Shown here: positions 1 to 44,719 of the stretch, one piece after another
Numbering within the stretch: position 1 is the first letter of the stretch
Layout: each line of letters opens with the position of its first letter
Assembly (NCBI RefSeq): GCF_017940685.1
Contig: NZ_JAGAYD010000192.1
Location: forward strand, 1 to 46,006
Reading direction: 5' to 3'
DNA: 46,006 nt
Source of the DNA: Butyrivibrio sp.
GTDB lineage: Bacteria; Bacillota; Clostridia; Lachnospirales; Lachnospiraceae
Notes under the pieces: generated by a model
What the model saw: only the letters and a program-made list of their open reading frames with translations
Database searches by the model: none
Told to the model about the DNA's origin: nothing
Translations under genes and position numbers: made by a program

Positions 1-43
1 TCTCATTGCACACAATGAGACAAAAGAACCGTCCCCGTGTCAC
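1..43 (-). repeat. Unit of the 39-bp GGGGACGGTTCT repeat family, left edge
   Basis: The first 20 bases form a small hairpin (TCTCATTG, loop CACA, CAATGAGA). They run into AGAACCGTCCCCGTGTC, the reverse complement of the family core GACACGGGGACGGTTCT. The unit ends just before the asnB ribosome binding site at 55-60, so it lies in the asnB leader or promoter region. Further units may continue outside the window. Confidence 0.85.
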
Positions 44-6900: not shown

Positions 6901-8502
6901 CAGCTTATTTACGATCTTAAAAATGCCAACGACAAGGCCAGGATATCAGTCAAGCTGGTTTCTGAAGCGGGTGTTGGAACTATTGCTTCCGGCGTTGCCA
7001 AGGCAGGAGCCCAGGTTATCCTGATATCTGGCTACGACGGTGGAACAGGTGCAGCACCTTCATCTTCCGTTCACCACGCAGGACTTCCTTGGGAGCTTGG
7101 GGTAAGTGAAGCCCACCAGTCCCTTTTGGACAGCGGCCTTAGAAGCCACGTAGTCCTTGAAACTGACGGTAAGCTCATGACAGGTAGAGACGTTGCCATT
7201 GCGGCACTTCTTGGAGCTGAGGAATTTGGCTTTGCCACAGCGCCACTTGTATGCATGGGCTGCATGATGATGAGAGTCTGCAACAAGGATACATGTCCTG
7301 TTGGAATTGCAACTCAGAATGAGGAGCTCAGAAAGCGCTTTAAAGGAAAGCCTGAGCATGTCATGAACTTCATGCTCTTTATTGCAAGGCAGCTAAGGGA
7401 GATCATGGCGGGACTTGGATTTAGGACAGTTGCAGAGATGGTTGGAAGGACCGACTGCCTTAAGATGAGAAGCTATACGGGTACTTCAAGGCAGGCAAGG
7501 AAAAATGCTGCGGACCTTTCAAGGATCCTTGATCAGAAATATGCAGGGTGCGAAAAGAGCTCTTTTGACCAGGCAGATGCCTTTGACTTTGGCCTTGAAA
7601 AGACCTTGGATAGCAGGGTGCTGATACCTGCGTATGAGAAGAATAAAAAGAATTTGAAGAGCGGAGCCGGCAGCAGGGGCGCGGCAGCTAGAGCGGCCGG
7701 CGAAAGTGCGGACGTTTTGGTTGACATTTCAAGTACCGACAGAAGCTTTGGAACGCTCCTTGGCAGCAGGGTAACTGCGGACTTTGGAGACAGTCTTCCT
7801 GAAGACAGCTTTGTGGTTGAAGCCCATGGCGGCGGAGGCCAGTCCTTTGGTGCATTCCTTCCAAAAGGAGTTACCTTAAGGCTTTACGGTGATGCCAACG
7901 ACGGCTTTGGCAAGGGCTTGTCAGGAGGAAAGGTTGTGGTAAGGCCTTCTGAGAAAGCGACCTACAAGGCCCATGAAAATATAATCATCGGAAACGTTGC
8001 TCTCTACGGTGCAACTGCAGGAAAAGCCTATATCTGCGGCGCTGCAGGTGAGAGATTCTGCGTGCGAAATTCCGGAGCGGTGGCTGTTGCTGAAGGCTGC
8101 GGCGATCACGGCCTTGAGTACATGACCGGTGGCCGCGCTGTGATCCTTGGCATGACAGGCAAAAACTTTGCGGCTGGCATGAGCGGCGGAATCGCCTATG
8201 TTCTGGACAGGGAGCACACTCTTTATCTGAGGATGAACAAGGACATGGCGTCCCTCTATGAAGTTACGGAAAAGTACGATATTGCGGAGCTTCGCTCGAT
8301 ACTTGAGGATTATGTGGCTGAGACAGATTCTGAGTTTGCAAAAGAAATTTTGGAAAGCTTTGAAGAGAATCTGCCTGACTTTAAGAAGATCGTGCCAAAC
8401 GATTATCAGAAGATGATAACAGCCATAGGCAGGTACGAGGAGCAGGGAATCGATCACGAGCACGCAGTGCTTGAGGCGTTTAAGGAGATTAGTCATGGGT
8501 AA
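3946..8502 (+). CDS. gltB: Glutamate synthase large subunit
   Basis: The 1518-residue large subunit of NADPH-type glutamate synthase makes glutamate from 2-oxoglutarate and glutamine amide nitrogen. The order is a class II amidotransferase domain (nucleophile Cys12 in ERDACGIG, after a short propeptide), central domain, FMN-binding synthase domain (GAMSYGSLSKEAHETLA, then GGELPERFG) and C-terminal GXGXG beta-helix (GGGGQSFGAF onward). A cysteine set C1106-x5-C1112-x4-C1117 fits the 3Fe-4S cluster. AGGTAGGA precedes the ATG. Length is typical. The last 8 bases overlap gltD, which implies translational coupling. With glnN upstream the pair forms the GS-GOGAT cycle. Confidence 0.97.
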   Translation: METWMNERDACGIGAVINIDGKPDNKVLDDALSIVEKLEHRAGKDATGKVGDGVGILVQISHDFFKKAAKAADIAIGGKGDYGVGMFFLPQDPMKRMFAKRMLEVIAEKEGLTVLGWRDVPTHPEILGEVAVACMPYISQCFVKRPEGTPKGIDFDRKLYSLRREYEKSSDDTYICSFSSRTIVYKGMFLVGQLRLFYQDLLDPEYRTAIAMVHSRFSTNTTPSWQRAHPYRMIAHNGEINTIRGNSDRMLAREETMSSDVFGDDLSKVYPVIASSGSDSAMLDNTLEFLYMNGMDLPLAMMLTIPEPWKHNDFMAQDKKDFYHYYATMMEPWDGPAAVLFTDGEVFGATLDRNGLRPSRYYVTKDGRLILSSEVGVLDIPEEIIEKKSRLSPGHMLLVDTRQGRIISDKECKDGYAKKSPYGEWLDRYLLHLSELKIPNKKIEVHSQEMRDKLYKVFGYSYEDVKDQIMPMATAGIEPTVSMGSDIPLAMLSDHHQMLFCYFKQLFAQVTNPPIDSLREKVVTDTTVYIGSDGNLLKEKNDNCRVLEVNNPILTGVDLIKIKALDQPGFKVETISLLYYKNTSVEKALEQLGISVDRAAQEGANIIVLSDRGVDENHMPIPSLLAVSSVEQHLVRTKRRTAVSIILESGEPRDVHQVATLLGFGARAINPYLAHECIAELIDIGILDKDYHTAIADYNKALLGGVVKIAAKMGISTLQSYQSARIFEAIGLSKELIDKYFTGTTSRVGGIGIEEIGEDVEKRHNSAFDPLGLHTDESLDSFGFHSLRSGDNMEDHMYSPKTIVTLQRAVREGNYDLFRQYTDMVDDEDRPHTLRALLSLVPGGKPVPIEEVESEEEIVKRFQTGAMSYGSLSKEAHETLAIAMNRLGGKSNTGEGGELPERFGTIANSAVKQVASGRFGVSSSYLLSAKEIQIKMAQGAKPGEGGHLPGKKVYPWVAKTRFSTPGVALISPPPHHDIYSIEDLAQLIYDLKNANDKARISVKLVSEAGVGTIASGVAKAGAQVILISGYDGGTGAAPSSSVHHAGLPWELGVSEAHQSLLDSGLRSHVVLETDGKLMTGRDVAIAALLGAEEFGFATAPLVCMGCMMMRVCNKDTCPVGIATQNEELRKRFKGKPEHVMNFMLFIARQLREIMAGLGFRTVAEMVGRTDCLKMRSYTGTSRQARKNAADLSRILDQKYAGCEKSSFDQADAFDFGLEKTLDSRVLIPAYEKNKKNLKSGAGSRGAAARAAGESADVLVDISSTDRSFGTLLGSRVTADFGDSLPEDSFVVEAHGGGGQSFGAFLPKGVTLRLYGDANDGFGKGLSGGKVVVRPSEKATYKAHENIIIGNVALYGATAGKAYICGAAGERFCVRNSGAVAVAEGCGDHGLEYMTGGRAVILGMTGKNFAAGMSGGIAYVLDREHTLYLRMNKDMASLYEVTEKYDIAELRSILEDYVAETDSEFAKEILESFEENLPDFKKIVPNDYQKMITAIGRYEEQGIDHEHAVLEAFKEISHG

Positions 8503-10072
8503 GGAAACAGGATTTCTTGAATTTAGCAGAATGAATAACGGGGATGTTGCGCCCCTTGAAAGGATACAGAATTTCGAGGAATTCCACACTCCGCTGGTTC
8601 CTGAAGACAGAAGAAAACAGGCTGCAAGGTGCATGAACTGTGGTGTTCCGTTTTGTCAGTCTGCCATGAACCTGAGCGGAATGGTGGTTGGATGTCCTCT
8701 TCACAATCTCATTCCTGAGTGGAATGATGAACTTTACAAGGGACATGATGAGCATGCATTTAACAGGCTCCACAAGACCAGCAATTTCCCTGAGTTTACA
8801 GGCCGCGTGTGCCCTGCTCTTTGCGAGAAGGCCTGCATGTGTGGACAGTACGGAGATTCAGTAACGGTCCATGACAATGAGCTGTTCCTGGTGGAAAGAG
8901 CTTATGAAAAGGGCTATATTAAGCCGGTAATTCCAAAGGTTAGAAGCGGAAAGACTGTCGCTGTTGTTGGAAGTGGCCCATCAGGACTTGCTGTGGCTGA
9001 TGAGCTCAATCACAGAGGTCACTCTGTTACAGTGTTTGAGCGTGAGGATGAGATTGGTGGCCTTCTGATGTACGGAATCCCCAACATGAAGCTTGATAAG
9101 AGCGTTATAAAGCGCAGAAGAAAGCTCATGGAGGAGGAAGGCGTTAAGTTTGTCACAGGAGTAGATGTTGGCAGGGATAAGGATTCTCGTGAAATCTTAG
9201 ATGGTTTTGATGCTGTGGTTTTGTGTTGCGGCTCCAAGAAACCAAGACCACTTGCGGCAGCTGAGCCAGGTAAAGTCGGCGGTGTATATTACGCTGTTGA
9301 TTTTCTGACTCAGAATACCAAGGCGCTTATGAAGGCTTCAGATAGAAGCGCCTCCGCTCTTAAGAAAGTTGGTGGTTACATCGACGCTGCAGGTAAGAAC
9401 GTTGTCATCGTCGGTGGCGGAGATACAGGTAACGACTGTATTGGAACAGTCATAAGGCAGGGAGCAAAGAGCGTCACTGCCCTTGAGATGATGCCAAAGC
9501 CCCCAGTAGACCGCGCTCCCTCAAATCCATGGCCAGAATGGCCAAAGACCCTCAAGACCGACTATGGCCACGAAGAAGCTATCGCAGTATTTGGCTCAGA
9601 TCCACGAGTATTTGAGACCACAGTAAAGAGCGTCACTATAGATAAAAAGGGCAATCTTAAGGAGATAGAAACAGTTAAAGTTGCCTTCAAGGACGGCAAG
9701 CTCACTGAAGTTCCTGGCTCCGAAAAGAAGCTTAAATGCGAGCTCCTTCTCATCGCCGCCGGCTTTATCGGCTGCGAAGACTACACCGCGGGGGCCTTTA
9801 ACCTTAAGCTCACAGGGCGCGGAACTGTCGAGCCCATGGAAACAAGACACGGGGACGGTTCTAGTGTCTCATTGCGCACAACAAGACACGGGGACGGTTC
9901 TGTTGTCTCATCGCAGCATGGCAAGCCAGTAAGCATCTACAGGGCTGGCCAAAAGCTCTTTTCCGCAGGAGACATGCGCCGTGGCCAGTCCCTTGTAGTC
10001 TGGGCCATCGCCGAAGGCAGAGCCTGTGCTAAGGAAGTGGATGAATTCCTTATGGGCTATTCGAATTTGTAA
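8495..10072 (+). CDS. gltD: Glutamate synthase small subunit, with repeat insertion
   Basis: The 525-residue small subunit passes electrons from NADPH to the large subunit. The ATG at 8495 follows AAGGAG and overlaps gltB; the upstream in-frame TTG is rejected. N-terminal cysteine groups ([29 protein letters not shown]) bind 4Fe-4S clusters. Two dinucleotide folds follow: [15 protein letters not shown] near residue 155 and [15 protein letters not shown] near 305. The C-terminal [18 protein letters not shown] is the family signature. Residues about 450-472 are foreign: they are the translation of two 39-bp-spaced copies of the window's GACACGGGGACGGTTCT repeat. The insertion stays in frame and lies between a beta strand and the final FAD segment. 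Function is probably retained, but this is inferred. Confidence 0.96.
9843..9911 (+). repeat. Two repeat units inserted inside gltD
   Basis: The core GACACGGGGACGGTTCT starts at 9846 and again at 9885, exactly 39 bases (13 codons) apart, with the usual TGTCTCATTGCGCACAACAA spacer. Both units are read in the gltD frame without a stop, giving TRHGDGS twice. Confidence 0.92.
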
Positions 10073-13393: not shown

Positions 13394-13500
13394 GACAATA
13401 GAACCGTCCCCGTGTCAGATTGTATGCAATGAGACAGAAGAACCGTCCCTGTGTCATGTTGTACACAATGAGACAGAAGAACCGTCCCCGTGTCTTGTCA
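13394..13500 (-). repeat. Three tandem 39-bp repeat units between the nad genes
   Basis: Core AGAACCGTCCC(C/T)GTGTC occurs three times, with GTGTC ends at 13412, 13451 and 13490: two exact 39-base periods. The spacer (AATGAGACAGA and neighbours) is also conserved, which argues against CRISPR spacers. The last unit supplies the TGA stop of the fused gene upstream. Confidence 0.95.
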
Positions 13501-15881: not shown

Positions 15882-18800
15882 ATGTTGAGAAAATGGAACA
15901 GATTTTTATCATTCCTTCTTGCAATAGCTCTTATAGCTACCACATTCCAAAGTGATCTGACCACAATAAGAGTTTTTGCGGAGGAAGACGTCGAAATTGA
16001 AGAGTCTTCCAATGAAGACTACGAGCCTGAGGCAGAGCAGGAACCAGCCTCAGAGGAGTCAGAGCCAGAATATGCACCTCCTTCAGAGGGCGAAGCCTCT
16101 GAAGATGCAGGAAGTGGCGGAAATGAGGATGCCGGTAATGGCGGAAGCGAAGATGGTGAGAACCCGCAGGAGCCTTCAGAGGAGATCCCGGAAGAGGGCG
16201 AAGAGATAATCCCCGAAGAGGAGATAATCCCTGAGGAAGAGATCATCCCTGAAGAAGAGGAAGAGCTTCCAGAGGTTAAAGAAGTAACAGTAACCTACAG
16301 GGCTGAGCTTGGCGGTAAGGTTTCAAAGTCAAAAGAAACCATCGACATCAACGACAAGGATGCTGAGTTTGAGGGATCAACAGCAAGCCCGGTAAATAAG
16401 TACTATCAGTTTACTGAGTGGGTTGACGAAGACGGAAACACAGTTACAACTGGTGAAACTCTTGTTCCTTCCGACATAGATGAAGATACATCATTTACAG
16501 CAAGATTCATGAAGCTTTCAGACATGCCAGCACAGGGCTTTTCAGGAAGTGCAGGCGGAATGGACGTAGCAGTTTCTGCTGACGAAGGTATTTTCCCTGA
16601 CGGAACATACATGGTAGTCACAGCAATTTCAAGGTCCGAAGCCATGGATGCAGCAGCAGATGCTCTTGGATCAGAGGTTAAAAACGCTGTGGGCGTAGAT
16701 ATTTCTTTCTACAACGCAGACGGTGAGAGCATTGAGCCAGCAAACTCCAAGATGGTTCACGTATCACTTTCACTTTCAAGCTCTCTTGAAGGCGATTCCT
16801 TCAAGGTTATCCATAAAGACGACAACGGAAATTCAGACGTTGTGGCAAGCGCAAGCGCAGACGGCGCAGACTTTGAGACAGGAAGCTTTTCTATCTACAT
16901 CATCGCAGATGATGACGAGTCAGTAGTTCCTCCAGAGATCCTTGCGGTTTGCACCTACGAATTCTATAACGGAGATACTCTTTTTAACACTCAGTCGATC
17001 AAGAAGGGCGATGTACTTGCAGATCCTGGCATTCCAGCTCTTGAAGCTGGCGAAGAGTTCACAGGATGGTACGTAGGCAATGATAAGATCGAATTTGGAA
17101 AAGAGATAACAGATGTAACCGCAAATGCAACTATCAAGGCCACAGCCAAGATTGAAAAGACTCTTTACCTGACATTCAGAGGTCTTGACGGCGAAGTAGT
17201 TCAGGTTAAGAAGATCGGCGCGAAAGAAGAAGGTTATCCTTACATCTCAACAGCCGGTCCTACAGTTGAACCAAAAGAACCAACCCAGGCTTTCAAGGGA
17301 TGGGCATCTACTGAAGGCGCAACAAAAGCAGAGGAGAAGATAGATGCAAGTCTGAATACCGATGCGTATCCCGTTATCATTGATGCTTACTGGATCACCT
17401 TTGATAAGAACGACGGCGGAAATGGCGGAGCAAGCTACACACCTCCTGTATATGTAGAAGCTGGTGAGCCTGCAACAGAAGCTGAGCCTGATGCCCCAGA
17501 GAGAGTCGGATATACATTTGACGGCTGGTATTTGGAGCAGGGAAGCGGCGATGGACAGGTTGTTGGTGACCCGTTTGACTTTAGTAGCACACTTGATAGG
17601 AACATCACTCTTTTCGCTAAGTGGACAGCAAATGCTACAACCCAGTACACAGTGATCCTTTGGGAACAGAAGATCGACGATCACAAAGATGCGGCAGATT
17701 CAGCAAAGACCTATGATTTCAAGGCTTCTTACACCAAAGAAGGCATTACCAACACACCATTTAGTGAAGCAACTCACGTAGAACCATATAAGTCAAGCCA
17801 CAGCACGGGCTTCCACTACGCAAGATGCGAATTTGTCAGGATGGATGGAGAAAACAAGATACCTGTCAGCGCTATAAGGGCTAAGGGCGACTCCATTGTA
17901 AACATCTATTTTGACAGAGATCTTATTACTATTGGATTTAGCTATAAAATTGATGGCAATTGGTATGATCTTCCATCCTATACTGGTCTGTATGGTCAGC
18001 TCTTCTCGAAATACGAAGACGAAGGATACGTATGGCCTGATACGGTTGGAAATTACAGTATTGACTGGTATGAAGAAAAGAAAAATGACAGCCCCGCAGG
18101 AACACACATGACATTCCTGGGAACCTTCCTTAAGACACATACATACTACGGAAAGATAGGAAGTAGCGGAAGTTACCATATAAGGCACTATAAACAGGGT
18201 ACTGATGGACAATACAAGCCAAATGCCCCTGATAATGAGACATTGGAAAACGGCGGAACCTTCTACTTCTCCAATAAGTACAATGGTTTTGAGGTGAAAC
18301 AGTACTACAAGGGCAGCAATTATCCTAGCAGTGAAAGCAGCTGGAAAACAGCAACTAACGGAGGAAGCACTTCATACAGCAGCAATCTCTTCATAAGATA
18401 CGAGAGAAAGAAATTCGACCTGACCTTCATGGACAACTTTGACGGCACTCAGTCTCAGAAAGCAAAGATTGAAGGCATTTACTACGAAAAGAGTCTTACA
18501 GGCTATGAAGGACAGGCTCCTCAGAAGGAAGACATGCCAAAGCGTCTTGGCTACGAATTTGCTGGATGGTACGAAGATATTGCGGGCTCAACACCATTTA
18601 ACTGGAATCAGCCAATGCCTGCAGCCAACAAGGTTGTTTACGCAAAATACACACCAATTACCGTACACATCACCCTGGATCCTAATGAGGGAACACTTCC
18701 AGATGGCCAGGATGCAGAGTTTGATCTTCCTTTCCACAGCGTGGTGCCAAAGGACATCATAATGCAGACCACAAGAGATGGCTATCAGCTGGTTGGCTGG

Positions 18801-21800
18801 TATGAAGGAAACACAGCCTACGGCTATCCAGAGCTTGAAAAGGACACAACCCTCAAAGCAAAATGGCGCAAGATCGGCTCAGTAAACGTAGTATACGACG
18901 CAAGTCCAAATGGAAGCGACGCACCAAAAGATATCTATAGCTATGCAGGAGATTCTGCAGTGGTTGTTGCTGGAAAACCTGCCACGATCGAAGAAGGCTA
19001 CACCTTCATTGGATGGAGGATCATTGGAGATGAGACTAATGAGATCCACTATCCAAACGGCGTATTTGAAATATCTTCTGAATACATAGACGGAAGTACA
19101 GTAACCCTTAAGGCGGTATATCAGAAGACCGGCGACCCTGGAACTTCAACAGAGGAAGCGATTATTACCTACGACGCCAACGGCGGAATCGGCGGACAAA
19201 AGAGCTTTACCTACAGAAGGAATGAAGCCTTTACCGCAAAGACAGCAGCTGCACTTGAATTTAGCAGAAGTGGTTACAGGTTCCTCGGATGGGCAAAGAG
19301 CGCAGATGCTACAGATCCTTGGATCACAGAAGGAACAAAGATAGCAGTTGATAACCTGCCTGACCTTCCAAATACACTTTATGCAGTATGGAAGCAGAAC
19401 ACAGGCAAGTACCATATCGAGTACTACAAGGGTGTTGTTACAGAGCCTTCGGATGACGATCACTTCCTCGGTGCAACAACTCCGGTAGAAGAAGTTGTTG
19501 GCAAGGAAATTTATCTTACAGACGCTCAGATCAATGCTAATAGGCCTTCTGAAGGCTACCAGGCTGGAGAGCAGCTTGACAGACCTTACGTGATACATGA
19601 AGGCGATGACAACGTGATCTACGTTCTCTACAAGCCGGTAGTGGTTGAGGTAGTAGTAGAAGGAACACAGATCAGCAAGGTTTACGACGGAAATACCTAT
19701 TCCGTAAAAGGATATAAGGTTGTAAGCATCACCGAAGGCACAGGCTATCAGGAGTCATACATCAGATATAATGGAAATCTTGATATCAGCGCAACTCACG
19801 TTGAAGACTCAGAAGAGATAATTCTTGATCCAAATAAATTCGTTAACAATAGCTCTTTTGACGACGCAAGTGTTAAGTTCATTATCGGAAGTGTTCAGAG
19901 CAACAAGGTAGAGATCACACCAGCAGAGCTTACAATTAAGACCCTTGGCGCAGAGAAAGAGTACGACGGAACACCTCTTACAGCAGGCGGATCCATCGAG
20001 GGATTTGTGGGAAGTGACAGTGCAACCTTCACACTTACTGGAAGCCAGACAGAAGTTGGAGAATCTGACAATACATACAATATTGTATGGGATCATGCAA
20101 AAGAGTCTGACTACACTAAGAAGGAGACCATCGGAAAACTTAAAGTAACACACAACCAGTCCAAGATCACAGTTAAAACAATTGGCGGTGTATGGACCTA
20201 CGATGGAAAAGAGCATGGCGCAACCGTAGAAGTAACCGGCATTCCAGCTGGATATGTCCTTGAAGAGTATTCATCAAGTGCAAAGGCTAAGGATGTAACT
20301 GATGCAGCAGTTGAAGCTACAGCAGACAATCTGGTTATTACCTACAATGGCGTGGATGTAACTGGAAAGCTCAATATCCAGTATGAGTACGGCACCATTA
20401 CCGTTAATCCTGCTCCTTACAGCATTGAGACATTCTCAGATGAGAAGGTTTACGACGGAACACCTCTTACAGCAGGCGGTGAGATCACAGGCATCGTAGA
20501 AGGCGAGACAGTAAGCTTTGCTACAACCGGAAAGCAGACAGTTCCTGGAACAAGTGACAACACCTACAGACTTACATGGGGAACTGCAAAGGCTTCCAAC
20601 TACAAGCTGGCTGGCGAGATCATTGGCAAGCTCACTGTAAAAGATACTGAAGCTGAGATAGTAGTTACTACCAAGGCTGGAATATTCACCTACGATGGAA
20701 CCTTAAAGAAAGCAGAAGTCAGCTACACAGGAGTTCCTGATGGATACACGGTAACTGAGGCAAGTTCAGATACACAGGCAACTGACGTAACTGCTGCAAT
20801 CCACGCAAAGGCAGATCATTTCAAGATCCTGAACCCTGCAGGCGAGGATGTAACAGGTAAACTCAAGATCACATACGTAGAAGATGACCTTATCATCAAC
20901 CCTGCTCCTCTTACAGTAATTACAAAGAGCGCAGCAAAGCCTTATGACGGAAGTCCTCTTACAGCAGAAGGAACAATAGATGGTTTCGTAAACGGCGAGA
21001 GTGCTCCATTTACAGTAACCGGTACCCAGACAGATGTTGGTAAGTCAGATAACACCTATGAGATTGACTGGAACGACACATCAGCAACAGCTAAGAAGGG
21101 TAACTACGAGATAAAAGAAACTGTTGGAGAACTTGAAGTTACTGAGTTTGATAAGGAAGTTACAATAAAGACAACTGGTGGACAGTTCCCATACGATGGT
21201 GAGCCTCACGGCGCAACAAAGGTAGAGGTCATCGGACTTCCTGAGGGCTACACATATGAAGCTTCTTCAACAACTACAGTTACAGAAGTTGCAGATGGAA
21301 TAAAAGACGTAACAGCTGATCAGCTTAAGATCTTCAATAACAAGGGCGAGGATATCACAGAGGTCATCAAAAAGAGATTTGAAGATGACAAGATTGAGAT
21401 CACCGCAAGACCTGTAACAGTCTACATTGATGGTAACAACAAGACTGCAATGTACAACGGTACATGGCATGAAGTTACAGACTACAAGGAAACTGGTATA
21501 TCAGATCCTCTTTACAAGACTGAGTACTACAAGTTTAGCGGCGAAGCTAAGGCAAGAAGAATGGCAGTTGGTACAACTTACATGGGACTTAAGGATGATC
21601 AGTTTACCAACAACAATACAAACTTTAAAGTAACCTTCGACATCATAGACGGCTTCATCACCATCAGAGACCGAGGCGAAGGCGAGAAGTACAGCATCAC
21701 GGCAATTACAGATCCTGTAACTAAGACCTACACCGGCGAAGTATTTAAGGACTTTGACTACAGACTTGTTGGCGAAGGACCTACTGACAGCGTGATTGAA

Positions 21801-22598
21801 GGTGTGACAAGAGCAATCAGAGATGGCATTTCAAGGATTGCAGACGCATTCACATTGACAGCTGGAGCTTCTGACGGCAGCGAAGAGCATACCGTTGAGA
21901 TAAACGGCGTAACCTTCACAGTAACTGGTCTCTACGTTCCTACAGAGAAGAGAGATGCAGGTTCATACGATCTTGATATCGAAGGAACCATAGTGATCAA
22001 GGATCCTGAAGGAAACGTAGTAACAGATCAGTTCAATGACCTTAAGAAGGAAATTGGCAAACTCACCATCGAGCCAATGCCAATACACGTTGAATCTCCA
22101 AGCGATTCGAAGCAGTACGACGGAACACCTCTTACAAATAACAAAGTATTTACTGACAAGCCTTGGGGCATCGGAGATGAAGTCAAATATGTAGTAACCG
22201 GAAGTCAGACAGCAGTTGGATCAAGCCCTAACTACTTTGAGATAACCGGCGATGGCGTTGACTTTGATAGGAACTACGTGATCGACAAGAAGGAAGGAAC
22301 ACTGACAGTAACAAGCGTTCCTGGTGGCGGCGGAGACGATCCTACACCTGGCGGCGGTGGTGATCCTACACCTACAACAATTACTGACACTCCTACACCT
22401 ACAGCTCCTACTCCAATAGCTCCTCCTCCAGCAGCAGTCCTCGGAGCAGTAAGAGACGACGGTCCTGCAGTTCTCGGAGCAAGACGCGCAAGAACCGACG
22501 ACGTATCCAACAGGGCAGCAAGGATCTTCATAGCCCTGATCGCAGCCGGCATTGCAGCAGCTCTTTTGGCAACCAGGAAAAAAGATCCTGAAACATGA
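15882..22598 (+). CDS. Giant repeat-containing cell-surface protein
   Basis: The 2238-residue protein starts with a signal peptide (basic MLRKWNRF, hydrophobic core, cleavage probably after RVFA near residue 33). An acidic Glu/Pro stretch with EEIIPEEE repeats follows to about 136. Residues about 139-1230 hold InlB B-repeat/Flg_new modules ending in FxGWY...LxAKW patterns. Residues about 1255-2140 hold MBG-like modules marked by YDGTPLTAGG; the DNA encoding that motif recurs near 19962 and 20453. A Gly/Pro/Thr linker, two VLGA motifs (AVLGAVRDD, AVLGARRARTDD), a transmembrane helix and RKK end it. No LPXTG is present. It is likely an exported, wall-spanning or membrane-held adhesin or matrix protein. 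GAGGAGG precedes the ATG. The TGA stop belongs to the adjoining repeat. Confidence 0.92.
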   Translation: MLRKWNRFLSFLLAIALIATTFQSDLTTIRVFAEEDVEIEESSNEDYEPEAEQEPASEESEPEYAPPSEGEASEDAGSGGNEDAGNGGSEDGENPQEPSEEIPEEGEEIIPEEEIIPEEEIIPEEEEELPEVKEVTVTYRAELGGKVSKSKETIDINDKDAEFEGSTASPVNKYYQFTEWVDEDGNTVTTGETLVPSDIDEDTSFTARFMKLSDMPAQGFSGSAGGMDVAVSADEGIFPDGTYMVVTAISRSEAMDAAADALGSEVKNAVGVDISFYNADGESIEPANSKMVHVSLSLSSSLEGDSFKVIHKDDNGNSDVVASASADGADFETGSFSIYIIADDDESVVPPEILAVCTYEFYNGDTLFNTQSIKKGDVLADPGIPALEAGEEFTGWYVGNDKIEFGKEITDVTANATIKATAKIEKTLYLTFRGLDGEVVQVKKIGAKEEGYPYISTAGPTVEPKEPTQAFKGWASTEGATKAEEKIDASLNTDAYPVIIDAYWITFDKNDGGNGGASYTPPVYVEAGEPATEAEPDAPERVGYTFDGWYLEQGSGDGQVVGDPFDFSSTLDRNITLFAKWTANATTQYTVILWEQKIDDHKDAADSAKTYDFKASYTKEGITNTPFSEATHVEPYKSSHSTGFHYARCEFVRMDGENKIPVSAIRAKGDSIVNIYFDRDLITIGFSYKIDGNWYDLPSYTGLYGQLFSKYEDEGYVWPDTVGNYSIDWYEEKKNDSPAGTHMTFLGTFLKTHTYYGKIGSSGSYHIRHYKQGTDGQYKPNAPDNETLENGGTFYFSNKYNGFEVKQYYKGSNYPSSESSWKTATNGGSTSYSSNLFIRYERKKFDLTFMDNFDGTQSQKAKIEGIYYEKSLTGYEGQAPQKEDMPKRLGYEFAGWYEDIAGSTPFNWNQPMPAANKVVYAKYTPITVHITLDPNEGTLPDGQDAEFDLPFHSVVPKDIIMQTTRDGYQLVGWYEGNTAYGYPELEKDTTLKAKWRKIGSVNVVYDASPNGSDAPKDIYSYAGDSAVVVAGKPATIEEGYTFIGWRIIGDETNEIHYPNGVFEISSEYIDGSTVTLKAVYQKTGDPGTSTEEAIITYDANGGIGGQKSFTYRRNEAFTAKTAAALEFSRSGYRFLGWAKSADATDPWITEGTKIAVDNLPDLPNTLYAVWKQNTGKYHIEYYKGVVTEPSDDDHFLGATTPVEEVVGKEIYLTDAQINANRPSEGYQAGEQLDRPYVIHEGDDNVIYVLYKPVVVEVVVEGTQISKVYDGNTYSVKGYKVVSITEGTGYQESYIRYNGNLDISATHVEDSEEIILDPNKFVNNSSFDDASVKFIIGSVQSNKVEITPAELTIKTLGAEKEYDGTPLTAGGSIEGFVGSDSATFTLTGSQTEVGESDNTYNIVWDHAKESDYTKKETIGKLKVTHNQSKITVKTIGGVWTYDGKEHGATVEVTGIPAGYVLEEYSSSAKAKDVTDAAVEATADNLVITYNGVDVTGKLNIQYEYGTITVNPAPYSIETFSDEKVYDGTPLTAGGEITGIVEGETVSFATTGKQTVPGTSDNTYRLTWGTAKASNYKLAGEIIGKLTVKDTEAEIVVTTKAGIFTYDGTLKKAEVSYTGVPDGYTVTEASSDTQATDVTAAIHAKADHFKILNPAGEDVTGKLKITYVEDDLIINPAPLTVITKSAAKPYDGSPLTAEGTIDGFVNGESAPFTVTGTQTDVGKSDNTYEIDWNDTSATAKKGNYEIKETVGELEVTEFDKEVTIKTTGGQFPYDGEPHGATKVEVIGLPEGYTYEASSTTTVTEVADGIKDVTADQLKIFNNKGEDITEVIKKRFEDDKIEITARPVTVYIDGNNKTAMYNGTWHEVTDYKETGISDPLYKTEYYKFSGEAKARRMAVGTTYMGLKDDQFTNNNTNFKVTFDIIDGFITIRDRGEGEKYSITAITDPVTKTYTGEVFKDFDYRLVGEGPTDSVIEGVTRAIRDGISRIADAFTLTAGASDGSEEHTVEINGVTFTVTGLYVPTEKRDAGSYDLDIEGTIVIKDPEGNVVTDQFNDLKKEIGKLTIEPMPIHVESPSDSKQYDGTPLTNNKVFTDKPWGIGDEVKYVVTGSQTAVGSSPNYFEITGDGVDFDRNYVIDKKEGTLTVTSVPGGGGDDPTPGGGGDPTPTTITDTPTPTAPTPIAPPPAAVLGAVRDDGPAVLGARRARTDDVSNRAARIFIALIAAGIAAALLATRKKDPET

Positions 22599-22660
22599 CA
22601 CGGGGACGGTTCTACTGTCTCATTGTGCACAACAAGACACGGGGACGGTTCTGTTGTCTC
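22596..22660 (+). repeat. Two tandem 39-bp repeat units after the surface-protein gene
   Basis: The GACACGGGGACGGTTCT core begins at 22597 and 22636 (39-base period). TGA at 22596-22598 is both the first bases of the repeat and the stop codon of the upstream gene. Confidence 0.95.
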
Positions 22661-30858: not shown

Positions 30859-30871
30859 ATTAAATAAAAAT

Positions 30872-30924
30872 CAAAACAAGGGGACGGTTCTGTTGCAACA
30901 GAATCGTCCCCTTGTTTTGTTTTT
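30872..30924 (+). terminator. Terminator built from a repeat-family palindrome
   Basis: Arms 30872-30895 and 30896-30919 are complementary over 24 bases with one G-U and no loop. They contain GGGGACGGTTCTGTTG and its partner and are followed by TTTTT. It is a variant of the window's repeat core (AAGGGGACGG instead of ACGGGGACGG) positioned as the terminator of the DUF1858 gene. Confidence 0.85.
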
Positions 30925-38247: not shown

Positions 38248-38772
38248 ATGCTCAAATTAGCTTATGTGGGGATTGCCTTTTCGCTGGTCTTCTACGTAGT
38301 ATTTGGTTTAGCGGTTCGTTTCATGGAGCTATCTGATAAGTCCAGGAACAAGGCAAGGCTTGGAATTCTTCTTACTTCCATGATCATTTTTTCAATATCG
38401 GGTATCACCGCCGGAGTCCTTAATATAAAAATAGGGCTTATGATTTATGGCGTTGGTTTTCTTCTTTTCTCTTTAGTCGCGGTCGTCGTCGTTTTTTCCA
38501 TATTTATTGAACTTCATCAGATCAATTTAAGAGTCCGTATGCGCAGATTTATGGTTCTGTTTGATATTGTGGACAGATTCATTAATGAAGGCAAGACAAG
38601 AGATGAGATATTTGATTACCTGACGGTGAGCCAGAAACTTTCACATAGAGAGGCTTCGGATTTCCTTGAGTTCATTTCAGACCCTCACAATCATCAGTTT
38701 TTATCTGACGTCAACAGCCAGATCCAGGAAGCCAAGCTGATGCAGAAGGCAGAGAGCGACTTCTATAGATAG
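38248..38772 (+). CDS. Unrecognised membrane protein
   Basis: The 174-residue protein has three hydrophobic segments (about 5-25, 39-58, 64-90) and a charged C-terminal half. That half has helical content (RRFMVLFDIVDRFINEGKTRDEIFDYLTVSQKLSHREASDFLEF) and is probably cytoplasmic. AGGGGGG lies about 9 bases before the ATG. No family was recognised. It is preceded by a gap of 260 bases that holds the previous terminator and AT-rich promoter-like sequence, and is followed at once by the large palindrome. Confidence 0.7.
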   Translation: MLKLAYVGIAFSLVFYVVFGLAVRFMELSDKSRNKARLGILLTSMIIFSISGITAGVLNIKIGLMIYGVGFLLFSLVAVVVVFSIFIELHQINLRVRMRRFMVLFDIVDRFINEGKTRDEIFDYLTVSQKLSHREASDFLEFISDPHNHQFLSDVNSQIQEAKLMQKAESDFYR

Positions 38773-38787
38773 AATAGATCTTTGAAT

Positions 38788-38897
38788 AAGACATGGGGGC
38801 GGTTTGCTGACACGGGGACGGTTCTACTGTCAGGTTTTACTAAGATAAAACCTGACAGTAGAACCGTCCCCGTGTCAGCAAACCGCCCCCATGTCTT
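38788..38897. repeat. 52-bp perfect palindrome of the repeat family, copy 1
   Basis: Arms 38788-38839 and 38846-38897 are perfectly complementary over 52 bases around the loop CTAAGA. The inner part carries GACACGGGGACGGTTCT followed by ACTGTCAGGTTTTA. The outer part is a diverged unit (GACATGGGGGCGGTTTG). It lies between a convergent-free gene end and the livJ promoter. Confidence 0.97.
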
Positions 38898-38940
38898 GTT
38901 GCGCGCAATGAGACGGTAGAACCGTCCCCGTGGCTTTTTT
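38898..38940 (-). repeat. Additional repeat unit beside palindrome copy 1
   Basis: GCGCGCAATGAGACGGTAGAACCGTCCCCGTG continues the family spacer and core in reverse orientation. GACGGT-AGA-ACCGTC can form a small stem, and TTTTTT follows a few bases later, so it may act as a plus-strand terminator. Confidence 0.7.
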
Positions 38941-44588: not shown

Positions 44589-44594
44589 GACTAG

Positions 44595-44700
44595 ACACGG
44601 GGATGGTTCTGCTGACACGGGGACGGTTCTACTGTCAGGTTTTACTTAGATAAAACCTGACAGTAGAACCGTCCCCGTGTCAGCAGAACCATCCCCGTGT
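44595..44700. repeat. 50-bp perfect palindrome of the repeat family, copy 2
   Basis: Arms 44595-44644 and 44651-44700 are perfectly complementary over 50 bases around loop CTTAGA. The inner 33 bases of each arm equal those of copy 1. The outer part differs (ACACGGGGATGGTTCTG here) yet pairs perfectly with its own partner. It sits between the convergent ends of the liv operon and the chemotaxis receptor gene. Confidence 0.97.
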
Positions 44701-44719
44701 GTTGTCCCAGTGTCTCGCT

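Follow-up and report, generated by a model that had tools for sequence, protein, structure and literature searches.

REPINs and their RAYT transposases are known from Pseudomonas and E. coli, and compensatory changes on either side of the hairpin are among the features reported in the sections of that work cited here (PMC3116915). GTAG and CGTC REPs, TIRYT genes, TIR families and the motif GGGGWSAS have been described as well (PMC3733652, in the part cited). TIRs form repeat families in dimers or clusters in some species (the cited parts of PMC3733652 and PMC6006769), and for subclass 2.1 RAYT genes, section 20 of PMC6006769 reports that no REP-like sequences were found near the gene. The cited part of PMC8794818 describes template switching as a process that creates hairpins and may maintain them, with a less clear maintenance role for short stems, and calls complete loop inversions very rare in rRNA genes. 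It is an open question how perfect hairpins maintain their stems when so few intermediates are seen.

Here we analyze two palindromes in a 46,006-nucleotide stretch of Butyrivibrio DNA (the window), together with the window's own genome (G000; 3.67 Mb, 281 contigs) and its relatives. As in the REPIN/RAYT system in the cited part of PMC3116915, the palindromes are hairpin-forming inverted doublets of a short palindromic unit present in high copy, and an associated Y1 (HUH) transposase gene is flanked by the same units. Unlike that system, they lack a conserved GTAG and carry their conserved 12-mer in the loop of the unit, with a variable stem; in addition, doublets are nested in layers with centers inverted or replaced at orthologous sites. 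A RAYT-like gene between an inverted pair of G-rich repeats recalls TIRYT genes and TIRs as presented in the cited parts of PMC3733652 and PMC6006769; GGGGACGG, however, differs at the seventh position from the TIRYT/subclass 2.1 motif GGGG[AT][CG]A[CG]. A further difference from TIRYT/TIR systems is copy number, with as many as 60 exact-core doublets in a genome; helix-turn-helix matches of the transposase C-terminus stay below threshold. Quasi-palindrome correction by template switching is expected to leave two-arm changes, loop inversions and perfect stems that arise in a single step (PMC8794818, in the part cited). In the GGGGACGGTTCT family, orthologous sites display both loop inversions and changes matched between the two arms, for which other causes are possible; in contrast to the rRNA genes, inversion is found at 6 of 14 informative loci of this one repeat family. 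Searches of the open literature for the motif string, for RAYT in Firmicutes or Butyrivibrio and for nested palindromes retrieved no description of the family.

Two-layer palindromes in the window

The palindromes at 38788 and 44595 are two-layer nests of small hairpins with the core GGGGACGGTTCT. Their parts, and the other units of the window, are as follows.

38785..38900, no strand: two-layer palindrome, 55-nt arms at 98%, 6-nt loop; perfect core 38788-38897
38788..38807, plus strand: palindrome 38788, outer layer, left arm, AAGACATGGGGGCGGTTTGC
38808..38877, no strand: palindrome 38788, inner REPIN-like unit, TGACACGGGGACGGTTCTAC...GTAGAACCGTCCCCGTGTCA, loop 38840-38845
38878..38897, minus strand: palindrome 38788, outer layer, right arm, exact reverse complement of 38788-38807
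38912..38932, minus strand: additional REP unit immediately outside palindrome 38788, with a counterpart in the G034 ortholog
44589..44706, no strand: sister two-layer palindrome, 56-nt arms at 96%; perfect core 44595-44700
44595..44612, plus strand: sister palindrome 44595, outer layer, left arm, ACACGGGGATGGTTCTGC
44613..44682, no strand: sister palindrome 44595, inner REPIN-like unit, loop 44645-44650
44683..44700, minus strand: sister palindrome 44595, outer layer, right arm
30867..30924, no strand: single-layer zero-loop palindrome of the GGGGACGGTTCT family; the G034 ortholog has a three-layer nest there
9851..9901, plus strand: two direct (head-to-tail) REP units, 39 bp apart, within an oxidoreductase-like ORF (8471-10072)
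13400..13489, minus strand: three direct REP units, 39 bp apart
22602..22652, plus strand: two direct REP units, 39 bp apart, immediately past the ORF 15882-22598
25..36, minus strand: REP unit at the contig edge

The initial annotation had described a perfect palindrome with a self-complementary sister copy, and both are real: the first has 52-nt arms (38788-38839 and 38846-38897) around a 6-nt loop (38840-38845), and the sister (44595-44700) has perfect 50-nt arms, likewise with a 6-nt loop. The inner part of each arm is common to the two copies as claimed, over 34 nt rather than the 33 given. Outside it the copies diverge (AAGACATGGGGGCGGTTTGC versus ACACGGGGATGGTTCTGC), and in each the outer sequence is identical between the two arms. 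Outer units next to an inner unit were collected in G000 with the pattern GGGNNGGTTN{1,8}CTGACANGGGGACGG (27 matches). In this list GGGATGGTTCTGC beside the inner unit is restricted to the two arms of 44595 and GGGGCGGTTTGC to the two arms of 38788, which bears out the claim that outer differences are matched between arms.

Folded as single-stranded DNA, the two palindromes reach z = -23.1 (38788) and -20.6 (44595), with none of 200 shuffles each as stable. Rfam family RF04248 (MIR7486) attains exactly its gathering score on both strands at 38789-38896 of the window; we treat the match as spurious because mostly base pairing, not sequence, makes the score. Long perfect hairpins may attract false matches to RF04248.

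Within the window both palindromes lie between genes. Palindrome 38788 starts 15 bases beyond the end of an ORF (stop at 38772) and ahead of a periplasmic binding protein gene (39045), and 44595 is placed between a cytidylate-kinase-like gene and a convergent chemotaxis-receptor-like gene. One direct REP pair is inside an ORF. The spacing of head-to-tail units at 9851-9901, 13400-13489 and 22602-22652 is exactly 39 bp, equal to 13 codons for the pair within the oxidoreductase-like ORF.

The repeat family and its RAYT genes

The core GGGGACGGTTCT has 194 exact copies in G000, against 0 for the reversed control, and 46 inverted core pairs 10-40 nt apart. Four related genomes carry 46 to 60 palindromes each. 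Inverted core pairs occur in 21 of 80 genomes of the genus and, in an even draw from the family, in 21 of 396 genomes representing 20 of 280 genera, those listed having widely different stems. Units near RAYT genes fold as stem-loops whose loop keeps GGGGACGGTTCT or a variant thereof. The stems differ between genomes yet stay complementary (AGACA/TGTCT, AGCCA/TGGCT, TGAGTCA/TGACTCA, TATACCAA/TTGGTATA). GTAG 5' of the stem is not conserved, arising only where the free dinucleotide is AC. The family has the two hallmarks of REPINs, a high-copy short palindromic unit and two inverted units forming one long hairpin; it is REPIN-like, built from stem-loop units paired in inverted orientation, but the loop is what is conserved and GTAG is not fixed. 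Another REPIN-like family, marked by GGGGACGTTACAG, is nested at an orthologous site of the window in G031 (L035, 2183-2279), and GGGGACGTTACAG units also flank a second RAYT gene in G062 (L173).

G000 encodes one Y1 transposase of the RAYT kind, a 252-aa protein on contig C241 whose ORF contains an HVHL motif and is bracketed by GGGGACGGTTCT-family units. It scores 49.5 bits with Pfam Y1_Tnp (cut-off 23) and 48.5 bits with NCBIfam NF047646 REP_Tyr_transpos, below the equivalog cut-off of 80. A helix-turn-helix search of the C-terminus returned sub-threshold matches only (MarR_2 for the G000 protein, HTH_23 for its relative L185), and phmmer against PDB returned no relative at E <= 0.1. Relatives with at least 39% identity are present in 18 of 80 genomes of the genus (26 genomes at E <= 1e-20), including 11 of 11 genomes with at least three palindromes and 7 of the 69 others. 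Thirty RAYT loci were fetched, and 19 scanned for flanking units; stem-loop units lie near the gene in 18 of these 19 and on both sides in 14. Twelve of 33 named relatives are labelled Butyrivibrio, among them all eight with at least 73% identity. The palindromes are associated with a RAYT/TIRYT-type Y1 transposase in Butyrivibrio-type bacteria, as seen in the genome counts and the flanking units alike. The hairpins are probably mobile, and the RAYT would be the protein that moves the doublets. The family represents a REP-like population linked to RAYT genes, putatively of subclass 2.1, whose flanking units hold the motif in the loop.

Several further features of the RAYT loci were observed. 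The genus also has a more distant group of RAYT genes (31-36% identity; L164-L170, L174, L175) with other repeats on their flanks, such as GGTCCTAGGGGACGGGGTTAGTGGTCC. Several RAYT genes (L147, L148, L152, L155, L157, L159, L173) have one stop codon within the matched stretch, TAG in G031, G034, G022 and G017 and TAA in G007, G025 and the second G062 gene; this may simply be the terminal stop. Beside the G000 gene (L033, 131-250) lies an asymmetric nest with four tandem 20-bp units in the left arm and two in the right.

Arm matching within genomes

With moderate confidence, we propose that template switching across the folded palindrome keeps the arms matched in these nested REPIN-like hairpins accompanied by RAYT. 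The nests are inverted doublets of a small stem-loop unit with the conserved loop GGGGACGGTTCT, and layers would form when a site occupied by a doublet keeps its outer layer while the center is replaced by another doublet. During replication the palindrome would fold and the polymerase would switch template, and the arms would stay matched because one is copied from the other. A symmetric double switch would flip the center. In an asymmetric switch, a stretch of one arm would be replaced by the complement of its partner; a private mutation or small duplication would then appear in both arms or be lost from both. We infer the timing at replication, the predominance of interstrand switching and the relative age of the layers. 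A more far-reaching version, which we put forward only tentatively, envisages self-renewing invertible hairpins: frequent interstrand template switches would flip the innermost block, bring orientation near to random among related genomes and homogenize the outer arms, and repeated capture of doublets at the dyad would add layers. On this version, REPIN nests would be a natural, replicated record of template switching in bacterial replication. With 46 to 60 palindromes in each of four genomes, private marks, layers and orientable centers, the family could serve to measure the rate, direction and tract length of copying between arms.

The free dinucleotide that follows GGTTCT varies between loci and is equal in both arms at 101 of 102 palindromes of G000, G031 and G034. 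In a larger set, adjacent inverted exact units have the same dinucleotide in 123 of 126 cases versus 22 of 70 for adjacent direct units, the internal control for arm coupling. Nearness or shared descent does not homogenize direct neighbors, and the idea that they are homogenized as well was rejected on these figures. Matching extends outward. Over the outer 30 nt, a palindrome's own arms agree at a mean of 15.8 (G000), 23.8 (G031) and 23.9 (G034) positions and shuffled arms at 11.3, 13.2 and 15.3, respectively (93 of the 102 palindromes, those with 30 nt on both sides; 33 from G000, 25 from G031 and 35 from G034). Forty symmetric outer-unit pairs were read by hand from lists of outer units, and 32 were identical (shuffled mean 6.7, maximum 16). 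Thus, the inverted neighbors and the outer-unit pairs both support the coupling above independent mutation expected by the initial annotation. At 36 of 102 loci (each ortholog taken as its own locus), both arms carry the private variants, and both window copies are among them; private one-arm variants (324 over the 102 loci) are dominated by palindrome edges and are not taken as a rate. Two elements of G076 were omitted from the dinucleotide, outer-30-nt and private-variant counts.

Two other ways of treating the outer layers were set aside. The notion that they are copied flank of any kind was unsupported by eye, the layers looking REP-derived, and a fuzzy-regex count of units per cluster was dropped because it misses decayed outer units.

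Coupling is strong, not absolute. Uncoupled arm mutations, which the initial annotation had named as a refutation of its reading, occur in a minority of cases. Outer-unit deviations at two variable positions fall in both arms in five instances and in one arm in five (5 of 10), with 0.85 shared expected, and one-arm changes are found at 7 of 18 orthologous loci. In other genomes of the genus coupling tends to be weaker: a trinucleotide is equal in both arms at 10 of 11 elements in G007 (all 11), 20 of 25 examined in G010 (of 35), 14 of 25 examined in G017 (of 26), 3 of 4 in G005 and 2 of 3 in G022, the last two not above shuffles. The arms are uncoupled, that is, in 5 of 25 elements examined in G010 and 11 of 25 in G017, and the weak coupling in G017 speaks against template switching.

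Mixed arm pairs also bear on a different explanation, that selection for the folded hairpin, as single-stranded DNA seen by RAYT or as RNA, keeps pairing via ordinary compensatory mutations. In G010 and G017, 13 of 16 mixed pairs are separated by a single C/T difference, so that one strand retains a G-T pair, and the stems of single REP units covary between genomes, both as such selection would have it. We nonetheless regard it as improbable: dinucleotide intermediates are few (3 of 126 mixed in G000, G031 and G034), no obvious function attaches to pairing in the outer layers, which consist of decayed units, and two-arm indels (L221, L124) and center inversions are left unexplained. Of the three options raised in the initial annotation (template switching, gene conversion and folding selection), selection for folding on its own has the weakest support.

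In the TTATTTTA family an A/G asymmetry 9 bases from the dyad is kept in 22 of 23 elements, and the dinucleotide farther out matches in 23 of 23. Template switching would produce this combination if the innermost block flips whole while the outer part is homogenized. By analogy with the stem bulge under selection in E. coli REPs (PMC8266576, in the part cited), the near-loop A/G mismatch could instead be kept by selection.

Layers, inversions and two-arm changes at orthologous sites

Site 38788 in G034 has the same inner element except for the loop, a left outer unit with one or two differences and no right outer unit, whereas in G000 the right unit is the exact complement of its own left unit. 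Either gain of the right unit in G000, as copying from the left arm would give, or its loss in G034 could account for the difference. In G031 the site holds the nested palindrome of the GGGGACGTTACAG family. At site 44595, G031 has a related outer frame around another center, as pieced together from two contig ends overlapping within the palindrome; the G034 ortholog has no unit there, and G076 has other elements plus about 3 kb more.

The main rival to template switching is replacement, in which RAYT or recombination keeps swapping the occupant of a site for another, already symmetric copy from the population. Matched differences would be inherited from different master copies, and orientation would be random because an incoming copy can insert in either direction. 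A shared or related outer layer surrounds another center at three further sites (L068/L086/L118, L072 and L076/L090, and L069/L124) besides 44595, and layered composites of the GGTTTGC|TGACAC and GGTTCTGC|TGACAC types recur at several loci, as replacement would have it. We rate this explanation as rather unlikely, with the counterevidence given below. The initial annotation had overlooked the RAYT-associated REP doublets, the outer layer shared with a relative despite another center at some sites, and the incompleteness of coupling. Since the doublets are presumably a mobile family, some of the symmetry can come in with an arriving copy that is already symmetric.

From 145 exact-core palindromes, 105 ortholog comparisons were obtained (both directions). 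Identity across the palindrome reaches 85% or more in 23 distinct comparisons, which cover 18 loci. The first batch of G031 and G034 elements was chosen mainly by similarity to the window element and is rich in two-layer forms, and a later batch mostly by the TGTCT pattern. Loci with indels (L055/L115, L097/L126, L113/L221, L065/L215) were read by eye. The center is inverted relative to the flanks at 6 of 14 informative loci and keeps its orientation at 8. L065/L215 leans inverted and was left out of the orientation count, L128/L230 (another center family) was counted neither way, and L110/L114/L053 and window/L034 are uninformative for orientation. Matched two-arm changes are present at 7 of 18 loci, as are the one-arm changes noted above.

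Center inverted, scored by script: L075 versus L137 and L237; L053/L114 near 42639; L061/L136; L001/L233; L101/L129
Center inverted, scored by eye: L055/L115
Same orientation, scored by script: L041/L238; L088/L120; L220/L232; L228/L076; L047/L098; L095/L124
Same orientation, scored by eye: L097/L126; L113/L221
Two-arm changes: L047/L098; L095/L124; L097/L126; L001/L233; L101/L129; L065/L215; L113/L221
One-arm changes: L088/L120; L072/L228; L053/L114 near 42639; L095/L124; L055/L115; L061/L136; L113/L221

Among the two-arm events, the clearest is found in L221, where both arms have a 5-bp duplication relative to L113 that is absent from the other 50 palindromes in the family list (G031 and G034, 36 and 15 palindromes). 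An earlier view drawn from few conserved loci, that no coupled change occurs in place, was overturned by this larger set of loci. L075 and L001 give the cleanest inversions. At L055/L115, L061/L136 and L001/L233 the A/G asymmetry of the TTATTTTA family flips with the center. One-arm changes at L088/L120 and L053/L114 sit in the outer layer, and the inner element is unchanged at L041/L238, L110/L114, L137/L237 and L220/L232; one-arm changes left uncorrected at 7 of 18 loci, together with these unchanged inner elements, indicate that correction is slow or episodic. The arm-to-arm correction put forward in the initial annotation is upheld to the extent that center inversions and two-arm changes fit template switching, with the qualification that coupling is not absolute.

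At 4 of 7 two-arm loci (L047/L098, L095/L124, L097/L126, L101/L129) the outer layer is different too, and this holds at least in part for 4 of 6 inverted loci (L061/L136, L101/L129, L055/L115 and one arm of L053/L114), so that a whole-element swap is also possible there. Set against this, the dinucleotide is unchanged at all six inverted loci, and at four (L075, L053/L114, L061/L136 and L055/L115) no more than one position of the inner arms differs besides the flip. For the private two-arm variants (8 of 93 loci, 36 of 102 loci), the listed or sampled copies include no donor, the L221 duplication is unmatched in the other 50 entries of its family list, and master copies must themselves somehow acquire two-arm changes.

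Orientation and layers rest on draft assemblies (three core genomes), which is the main caveat. An assembler could mirror an arm or choose a center or orientation arbitrarily, and draft contigs often end inside palindromes (C47, C134, C185, C218 and C231 in G000; C35 and C10 in G031). Such an artefact is nevertheless very improbable as the source of the pattern. Both flanks of the elements align to independent assemblies, with 74-97% identity in 23 comparisons, and two of the six flipped elements (L075 and L001) are only 70-72 nt long, which should be shorter than a usual short read. Matched variable arms are found in more complete assemblies as well (G007 and G010, 99% complete).
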